A DNA stretch of 64,000 bases from an uncultured Pelagibacteraceae bacterium. Its GTDB lineage: Bacteria > Pseudomonadota > Alphaproteobacteria > Pelagibacterales > Pelagibacteraceae. The notes beneath the pieces are model-generated. The model had not been told where the DNA came from. It searched no databases and saw only the letters and a program-made list of their open reading frames with translations. Shown here piece by piece: positions 58,403-60,258 of this stretch (position 1 is its first letter; the number at the start of each line of letters is the position of its first letter). The stretch spans positions 56,755 through 120,754 of the forward strand of contig CABYCY010000002.1 in assembly GCA_902517615.1 (NCBI GenBank), in the 5' to 3' direction. A program made the translations under genes and the position numbers.

Positions 58403-58564
58403 TTATTTAAATAAATAAACAATCATTAAGATTATAAAAACTACAATAATCCAAATACTGAGATTTTTAAGAAATTGCTTTAATTGAGAATTTGATTGTA
58501 AAAAACTTGGAAGAACTAAAAGCAAAACCCCAACCATAAATATTACTGAAAGTAATTTATCCAT
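58403..58564 (-). CDS. Small (53 aa) two-TM membrane protein
   Basis: MDKLLSVIFMVGVLLLVLPSFLQSNSQLKQFLKNLSIWIIVVFIILMIVYLFK*; below ORF-track cutoff. Confidence 0.55.
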   Translation of the reverse strand: MDKLLSVIFMVGVLLLVLPSFLQSNSQLKQFLKNLSIWIIVVFIILMIVYLFK

Positions 58565-58588
58565 CAAAAACTCCTATATAAAATTCAT

Positions 58589-58618
58589 TTTGGTGCGGTC
58601 GGAGAGACTCGAACTCTC
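58589..58618 (-). repeat. 30-bp direct repeat copy 1: displaced tRNA-Leu 3' end (putative att site)
   Basis: TTTGGTGCGGTCGGAGAGACTCGAACTCTC identical to 60171-60200. Confidence 0.9.
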
Positions 58619-58708
58619 TGGAGAATAACCTTTTAATCGCAAATTTAAATATTAATTTAATAATACAACCAAACTTGAGCGCAATCTCAGCACAGTCAGA
58701 AAAATTAT

Positions 58709-60016
58709 TTATCTAAGATCAATAACCTTTTCAAATAAAACATCTGAATGTTTTTTTGTTTTTTTTAACTCTTCAAATACTGCTTGAGTGTTCATACAAA
58801 ATAATTGCAATGTTGCAGGTCTTCCTATCCTTGCAAGTTCTTTTGTATTATTAACCTCAAATTTCTTGGTATCAATTTTAACTCCGTTAGCTTTAAGAAA
58901 GTTTGAAAGTGTAGGTGCCGCAACAGCAAAGTTAACATTTTCTGGTATATATTCTGACTGCTCTAACATATATAATTTATTTAAACCTGAAGATGCTACA
59001 CCAACAACTTGACCTTCCATATTAAGTACAGGTCCACCACTATTTCCCGGCTGTATAGCTGCATCTATTTGAATTTCAGAATAATTATTTCCTGGACCGC
59101 TTAATGAACTAACAATTCCTCTTGTTAACTTAACACTTGTACTTAGTGCATCTGCTAAAGGATAACCAAAAGCAACTATATCTTCTCCATATTCAGCACC
59201 CTCAGTTTTAATGCTTAGATAATTGGGATTTTTATATTCTCCTTTCACTATACCAAGATCATTAACCTTGTCGGTTTTAATAACATTAAAATATTTTAAT
59301 TGACCATCTATTTTTGATGCAACCTGTCTACAAATACCAACCACGTGGTCATTAGAGACTATGTGTCCCTCTGCACTAACAAAGAAACCTGTGCCAGATC
59401 CAATTATATAAAGTTTTGCATCAGCCTCTTTTCTTTGTTTTTCCTCTTCCTCTTGTTTTTTTTTAGCCTCGGCTATTTTTCTTTTTTCTTCTTCAATTTT
59501 TTTCTTTTCTTCCTCTATTTTTTGTCTTTCTTTTTCTAATTCATTTGCATCTTTGTCTGCTATTTGAATTTTATCATTTTTATCAAAAAAACCCCAAGAG
59601 TAGAATTTTCTATTTTGATAATTAATTTTATGACAAATATCCTGCGCATTAGGGTAAGCATTACATGACATTAATACTGCAATTTTTCTATTAGGTTTTT
59701 CTGACTGAATATAGAAAAGTTCAAATCTTCCACCTGTCGCTATTTTTGTTAATCTTTTTTCTTTAAATTTTTGATAACTTATTTTTTTCCCATATGTGCA
59801 ATTGCCATCATTATATTCTTCTAAATATGCTCTATAAAAACTTCCTTCACAAAAATATAATTGCAACTCAATTCGTTTTCTAATTTTTTTTTTTTGTGTT
59901 TGGCTTGGTTTTTTTTTTTCAAGATTCCATATATCAATAGGATTTTCTTGACCTGTGGCATTAAAAATTGAACTTAAACAAATTAATATGAAAGTGTATG
60001 CTATGAATTGTTTCAT
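58709..60016 (-). CDS. Secreted trypsin-like serine protease (S1C/DegP-like) with Glu/Lys coiled coil
   Basis: Signal peptide; GSGTGFFVSAEGHIVSNDHVVG; DLGIVKGE; IQIDAAIQPGNSGGPVLNMEGQVVGV. Confidence 0.9.
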   Translation of the reverse strand: MKQFIAYTFILICLSSIFNATGQENPIDIWNLEKKKPSQTQKKKIRKRIELQLYFCEGSFYRAYLEEYNDGNCTYGKKISYQKFKEKRLTKIATGGRFELFYIQSEKPNRKIAVLMSCNAYPNAQDICHKINYQNRKFYSWGFFDKNDKIQIADKDANELEKERQKIEEEKKKIEEEKRKIAEAKKKQEEEEKQRKEADAKLYIIGSGTGFFVSAEGHIVSNDHVVGICRQVASKIDGQLKYFNVIKTDKVNDLGIVKGEYKNPNYLSIKTEGAEYGEDIVAFGYPLADALSTSVKLTRGIVSSLSGPGNNYSEIQIDAAIQPGNSGGPVLNMEGQVVGVASSGLNKLYMLEQSEYIPENVNFAVAAPTLSNFLKANGVKIDTKKFEVNNTKELARIGRPATLQLFCMNTQAVFEELKKTKKHSDVLFEKVIDLR

Positions 60017-60170
60017 AATTTAAGATTAACAAATCCTAAACGAAGAGTCTAAAATCAAATTTAAATTAAAATAATTCATTATAAAATTGACTCCAAAACG
60101 AGCACACTATGAGCACAGTGAGGTTAAAATTTTGAAAATTTTTTGCAAAAAGTTCCCATAAAAATTGAAA

Positions 60171-60200
60171 TTTGGTGCGGTCGGAGAGACTCGAACTCTC
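60171..60200 (-). repeat. 30-bp direct repeat copy 2: functional tRNA-Leu 3' end (putative att site)
   Basis: Identical to 58589-58618. Confidence 0.9.
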
Positions 60201-60258
60201 ATGGACTAGGTCCACACGGCCCTCAACCGTGCCTGTCTACCAATTTCAGCACGACCGC
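60173..60258 (-). tRNA. tRNA-Leu (anticodon GAG), CCA encoded
   Basis: Minus strand GCGGTCGTGCTGAAATTGGTAGACAGGCACGGTTGAGGGCCGTGTGGACCTAGTCCATGAGAGTTCGAGTCTCTCCGACCGCACCA; 7-bp acceptor stem, long variable arm, anticodon loop TTGAGGG. Confidence 0.95.

Follow-up and report, generated by a model that had tools for sequence, protein, structure and literature searches.

A protease gene between tRNA-derived repeats in a SAR11 genome: a probable integrase-less cassette moved in trans

A single protease gene lies between two copies of the 3' end of tRNA-Leu(GAG) in a 64,000-nucleotide stretch of DNA from an uncultured Pelagibacteraceae bacterium, which we call the window. Comparison of sequences makes it likely that this segment is a non-autonomous gene cassette, bounded by attachment (att) sites and mobilised in trans by integrases that SAR11 satellites encode. 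A first-pass annotation had offered either such a cassette or the remnant of a larger island. We favour the cassette over the remnant on four grounds: cargo is exchanged between ends that stay conserved, arm-like repeats are kept on either side, many tRNA genes show this anatomy, and the protease gene is intact. SAR11 bacteria are among the most abundant cells on Earth; their genomes are streamlined and considered poor in mobile elements and prophages, which raises the question of how single genes are gained and swapped. Cassettes of this kind would provide a concrete route, being tRNA-bounded, one or two genes long and recognisable by their ends. Finding the same slot empty or otherwise filled in relatives points to a system that moves single genes with a borrowed enzyme.

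An insertion with exchangeable cargo at tRNA-Leu(GAG)

The repeat, TTTGGTGCGGTCGGAGAGACTCGAACTCTC, is 30 bp long and its two copies, spaced 1582 bp apart, match with 0 mismatches (Table 1). No match to it arose in 100 shuffles of the window, and a search of the whole genome allowing up to 3 mismatches returned 2 copies, both at the cassette. Judging from the tRNA limits given by ARAGORN, the repeat covers the 3' end of the gene and extends 2 bp beyond it. As in tRNA islands, the direct repeat derives from a tRNA 3' end, the tRNA gene is left whole and the site is uninterrupted in relatives; an integrase gene, which such islands carry, is missing here. Only one substantial gene lies between the core copies, and a check of the interval's ORFs and Pfam profiles revealed no integrase. 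The sole PF00589 protein of the genome, a 325-aa frame, is encoded on another contig (G000:C5). The first-pass annotation thus had both the exact repeat around one protease gene and the lack of an integrase right.

Table 1. Features of the putative cassette and its flanks (window coordinates)
Feature	Position	Strand	Basis or remark
54-aa ORF, chromosomal flank	58403..58567	-	contiguous with tRNA-Leu in empty sites G050, G058 and G022; partial in G024
Distal copy of putative att core, 30 bp	58589..58618	+	at chromosomal flank junction (ygfZ / 54-aa ORF side); repeat and empty-site alignment
Left att-end module	58619..58703	+	75/85 identical to left end of G291, whose cargo differs
Left arm-like direct repeat pair, TGAGCGCAATC TCAGCACAGT	58676..58696	+	11-bp period, 58-78 bp from core
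Cargo: predicted 435-aa secreted trypsin-like (HtrA-type S1C) serine protease	58709..60016	-	Pfam and structure-database matches
Right att-end module	60091..60170	+	76/80 identical to G294 and 73/80 to G272, both with other cargo
Right arm-like direct repeat pair, CGAGCACACTA TGAGCACAGT	60099..60119	+	11-bp period, 52-72 bp from core
Proximal copy of putative att core	60171..60200	+	forms 3' end of tRNA-Leu(GAG)
Intact tRNA-Leu(GAG), target gene	60173..60258	-	ARAGORN

In the closest relatives, the order AMDH-ygfZ-54-aa ORF-tRNA-Leu-nadA is unbroken by any cassette. The two cassette flanks in the window, joined at the core, align without interruption to the empty site of genome G058 (96.7% over 361 bp) and, over the same 361 bp, to those of G050 (95.8%), G022 (94.2%) and G024 (89.8%). 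These alignments mark the 1582-bp segment as a real insertion. The core itself is present in 218 of the 399 genus genomes searched, and three of these 218 have two cores (the window genome, G101 and G155). This count of three is a lower bound, since contigs of G294, G272 and G145 end inside the cassette and the G291 core is slightly different.

Other genomes fill the same slot with other genes, all accompanied by GAGCACA arms: a protein with EF-hand, glutaminase and ankyrin regions in G101 (2444 bp), proteins of 116 and 244 aa in G291 (1366 bp, both ends present), a T5orf172 protein in G294, proteins of 157 and 132 aa in G272, a DUF1330 protein in G145 and a 196-aa protein in G155. The assemblies are drafts, in which contig ends truncate the cassettes of G155, G294, G272 and G145; in the last three the arm motif stands beside tRNA-Leu. 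Genome G230, with GAGCACA arms and one recognisable core, was left out of the cargo count. None of the cargoes compared at this tRNA resembles that of the window. Thus, on the alignments summarised in Table 1, the end modules are conserved at tRNA-Leu(GAG) and the cargo between them is swapped.

The first-pass annotation had proposed looking in relatives for an empty site or for different cargo between the same repeats, and both exist, the former with base-exact flanks. Its refuting case was an old tandem tRNA duplication, in which all relatives would carry this protease and no empty or alternative-cargo site would exist. A local duplication of the tRNA end, involving no mobile element, would explain the direct repeat itself and nothing else. 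It fails on the empty sites of the closest relatives, on the alternative cargo that others hold here and on the presence of this cargo family at tRNA-Met elsewhere; its probability seems to us close to nil.

Some details of these loci stand apart. The G101 cargo (L254:7432-9465) is a 677-aa protein combining EF-hand, glutaminase and ankyrin regions, an architecture that we take to resemble animal kidney-type glutaminase. G155, whose cores lie 10.8 kb apart, was considered as a large autonomous element and rejected, as the cores are the two ends of one cassette, on a contig that breaks inside it and has ordinary chromosomal genes between them. Here (L253, G155:C19) nadA is joined directly to a DksA-like gene and the contig runs round to the other cassette end, which reflects a genome rearrangement or else a chimeric assembly. 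A different Pelagibacter lineage (L098, L101, L102, L103) has, near nadA, the tmRNA gene in tail-to-tail arrangement with tRNA-Leu(GAG); the annotated 3' ends of the two overlap by ~13-20 bp, and the left neighbourhood is different.

Arm-like repeats and cassettes at other tRNA genes

The most informative feature of the locus escaped the first-pass annotation: each end carries a pair of direct repeats with an 11-bp period (consensus GAGCACAnTnT). The two pairs share one orientation, lie ~55 bp from the core and account for every match to this pattern in the window, where 0.05 would be expected by chance. Since the pattern was spotted post hoc, we tested it on cassettes found by other means, namely tRNA-end repeats or protease homology. 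Pairs with an 11-bp period were present at 24 of the 30 ends of these independently found integrase-less tRNA cassettes versus 13 of 725 windows drawn at random from those loci; any other period was seen at 4 of the 30 ends at most. In most cassettes, the similarity between left and right arms exceeds that of all 500 background pairs. The 11-bp pairs also occur at all six ends of three integrase-bearing elements (G039, G136, G236), where they adjoin tRNA-Thr, tRNA-Val and tRNA-Pro cores; these elements carry primase or DNA polymerase, TerS-like or excisionase-like genes. Given their position, their period and their co-occurrence with integrases, the pairs are best read as arm-type sites of a tyrosine integrase. 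They also allow cassettes to be found from sequence alone.

To explain this arrangement, we propose that the 30-bp core and the paired repeats make up the attL and attR on which an arm-binding tyrosine integrase acts. The enzyme would be supplied from outside the cassette, by satellite-type elements entering the cell. Recombination between cores would then excise or insert a circle bearing one or two genes, and the tRNA would be kept whole by the 3' end that arrives with the circle.

The anatomy is not confined to tRNA-Leu(GAG). A survey of stretches of the window genome found 29 tRNA genes and, among them, five integrase-less cassettes of 1.1 to 2.4 kb with one to a few genes each, at Leu(GAG), Ser(TGA), two tRNA-Met(CAT) and Leu(TAA). 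The complete genome G012 (32 tRNAs) and G022 (29) contain none, so carriage appears strain-specific. The window cassette and most others use the 3' part of the tRNA; those at tRNA-Ser and tRNA-Leu(TAA) use the 5' part. Arm sequences and cores vary from tRNA to tRNA, and at one tRNA-Met two cassettes, in the window genome and in G052, have the arms TGCTCCA in common and different cargo. Tandem cassettes occur at tRNA-Thr in G184 and G249. In two tandem arrays at tRNA-Thr(TGT), L333 (6258/4727/3878) and L338 (3990/5067/6436), each unit ends with a copy of the tRNA end.

Do SAR11 bacteria share a general cassette system, built on single-gene circles with conserved ends, many tRNA sites, arrays and, acting in trans only, the integrases of rare satellites that pass through the population? 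We regard the chances as evenly balanced. If they do, this would be an integron-like exchange system that has no resident integrase.

Candidate helpers and known elements

A matched helper type does exist at another tRNA. In G227, a 5.47-kb element with 59-bp tRNA-Met repeats encodes a 329-aa integrase, and its arms, GTGTGATCA, are the reverse complement of the unit in the protease cassette of G011 and G027 (tRNA-Met core, arms GATCACA). Thus both the tRNA and the arms of this satellite match those of the cassette. The pairing can be tested, since recombination is predicted between any cassette and satellite that agree in core and arms. More widely, SAR11 satellites of ~4.5-12 kb with an integrase were seen at six loci (L244, L255, L268, L269, L359, L360), most of them also with primase/DNA polymerase and TerS-like genes. 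Two elements at tRNA-Met, L362 (G385) and L363 (G324), measure 2.6-3.1 kb and carry an integrase with two small genes, 55-56 bp repeats and 11-bp arm pairs; they are intermediate between satellites and integrase-less cassettes.

For tRNA-Leu(GAG), we found no integrase with GAGCACA arms in ~400 genus genomes and no such helper in the viral contigs searched, where a scan for the element-side junction GAGAGACTCGAACTCTCTGG gave no match. Viral contigs carrying the exact core as a possible attP proved to be phage tRNA arrays, and those with GAGCACA tandem repeats, considered as helpers, had neither an integrase nor the tRNA core. Relatives of the L244 integrase occur in 3 of 399 genomes, and searches of phage records and IMG/VR returned none; strong phrog_1 island integrases are present in roughly 20 of 389 genomes. 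With so few of either, helpers seem to be rare, transient visitors.

Could the segment instead be what is left of a larger satellite or prophage at tRNA-Leu(GAG), which lost its integrase and most genes, kept the protease and no longer undergoes site-specific movement? The missing helper for this site fits such a history, as do the integrase-bearing satellites at tRNA genes in the genus (such as L244, L268, L269 and L359). So does the case of CIMEs, cis-mobilizable elements bounded by att sites and lacking an integrase, which are defined as decay products of conjugative elements, ICEs and IMEs (PMC5704250). However, at least six cargoes at tRNA-Leu(GAG) have near-identical ends, one genome holds five cassettes, arrays exist at tRNA-Thr, and integrase relics were not seen in the intervals examined. 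Repeated, independent decay to one or two intact genes, each time with both end modules kept, is improbable, and we consider the decay account unlikely. Relic cassettes that now travel chiefly by homologous recombination, by way of their flanks and ends, could also produce the picture seen here.

The likeness to CIMEs is nevertheless close. The window cassette, too, would retain attL and attR at the end of a target gene, it has no integrase or transfer genes, and tandem arrangements are possible in both. But CIMEs derive from ICEs or IMEs, and the integrase-bearing partners in SAR11 look like phage satellites. We saw no conjugation genes, and the matched integrase elements look satellite-like. 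Unlike CIMEs, moreover, SAR11 cassettes have one or two cargo genes and conserved ends between which the cargo is swapped.

The enzyme might also be the cell's own. The ~325-aa PF00589 recombinase is the only one in the window genome and occurs about once per genome in most of the genus, which would suit a single protein moving all tRNA cassettes; this same distribution makes it look like a shared chromosomal gene and not an island integrase. Arms and cores differ between tRNAs, whereas one enzyme should impose one site, and the gene is also present in the cassette-free G012 and G022. To our knowledge, Xer-type recombinases do not use arm sites. We find this source of activity very unlikely. 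Highly improbable, too, are the integrases of pelagiphages (Autographiviridae). In pelagiphages such as HTVC025P and HTVC011P the integrase does adjoin a full tRNA-Leu sequence, but their attP consists of a whole tRNA-Leu followed by GTTGCA repeats, of which HTVC011P and HTVC041P have two at a distance of 12 bp; 11-bp GAGCACA pairs were not seen there, and the target tRNA-Leu and the core are different ones. Satellite integrases acting in trans remain our preferred source.

In kind, tRNA cassettes and CIMEs are already known, and the SAR11 cassettes are a variant of them. Additive flexible-island gene cassettes at tRNA genes, marked by tRNA fragments, have been described in Actinomarinales (PMC7771536). 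These belong to another phylum, and the part of that account available to us gives no arm sites, cognate integrase elements or conservation of end modules; compared with the cassettes described there, those of SAR11 hold single genes and are dispersed among many tRNA loci. Tycheposons, too, are tRNA-bounded cargo elements of streamlined ocean bacteria and, as we propose for SAR11 cassettes, are moved by tyrosine recombinases. As summarised in PMC10872708, they span 4-200 kb and are marked by a tyrosine recombinase gene; against that description, the window cassette is 1.6 kb long and consists of a single gene with no such recombinase. Integron cassettes and CALINs, the latter being integrase-dependent cassette arrays (PMC11389934), resemble SAR11 cassettes in being single-gene units with recombination sites, no integrase of their own and sometimes an array organisation. 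Unlike them, SAR11 cassettes are spread over many tRNA genes, and their presumed sites combine the 3' or 5' part of a tRNA with 11-bp arm pairs, in place of attC hairpins. Cassettes of this type go unmentioned in a paper on SAR11 ecogenomics (PMC7318151). The features that look new are the single-gene scale, the conserved end modules with 11-bp arm pairs that satellites share, the swapping of cargo at one site and the number of SAR11 sites.

The protease cargo

The cargo protein matches Trypsin_2 (PF13365, E = 8e-24) and begins with a signal-peptide-like N-terminus, followed by a variable N-domain, a K/E-rich linker (~150-200) and a catalytic domain (~203-434). As in the HtrA family (S1C), the trypsin-like domain has the His, Asp and Ser motifs, at His224, Asp253 and Ser326. 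The homology to HtrA/DegP-type proteases (PDB 22kg, 5to1, 1l1j, 8k2y; E down to 5e-16) is confined to this catalytic domain, and the matches to solved structures stop at about residue 380. Unlike those proteases, the window protein shows no C-terminal PDZ domain in the Pfam result, which returned Trypsin_2/Trypsin alone, and it has the K/E-rich linker and an N-domain that varies among close relatives. An AlphaFold model built with four sequences (mean pLDDT 32.6) was discarded. A defence role suggested by a match in a defence library was also set aside, because the match ran through the trypsin domain alone.

Among 100 relatives there was no close orthologue. The nearest proteins, 72-73% identical over residues 199-434, come from three uncultured Pelagibacteraceae single-cell genomes, where each is the cargo of a single-gene cassette bounded by perfect 54-59 bp tRNA-Met repeats. 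The catalytic half is under purifying selection, as estimated from dN/dS values of 0.04-0.11 where dS could be estimated. The N-terminal half, except for the signal-peptide region, cannot be aligned even among the three sister tRNA-Met cassettes. The cargo is likely a periplasmic protease, probably held by purifying selection, whose N-terminal recognition domain would be exchangeable. Secreted proteases with swapped N-domains offer a lead on conflict at the cell surface or with phages. In the sister cassettes L218-L220, the protease domains are nearly identical and the N-domains unalignable, with a sharp boundary at the K/E-rich linker, a pattern that we read as domain swapping in a secreted protease.
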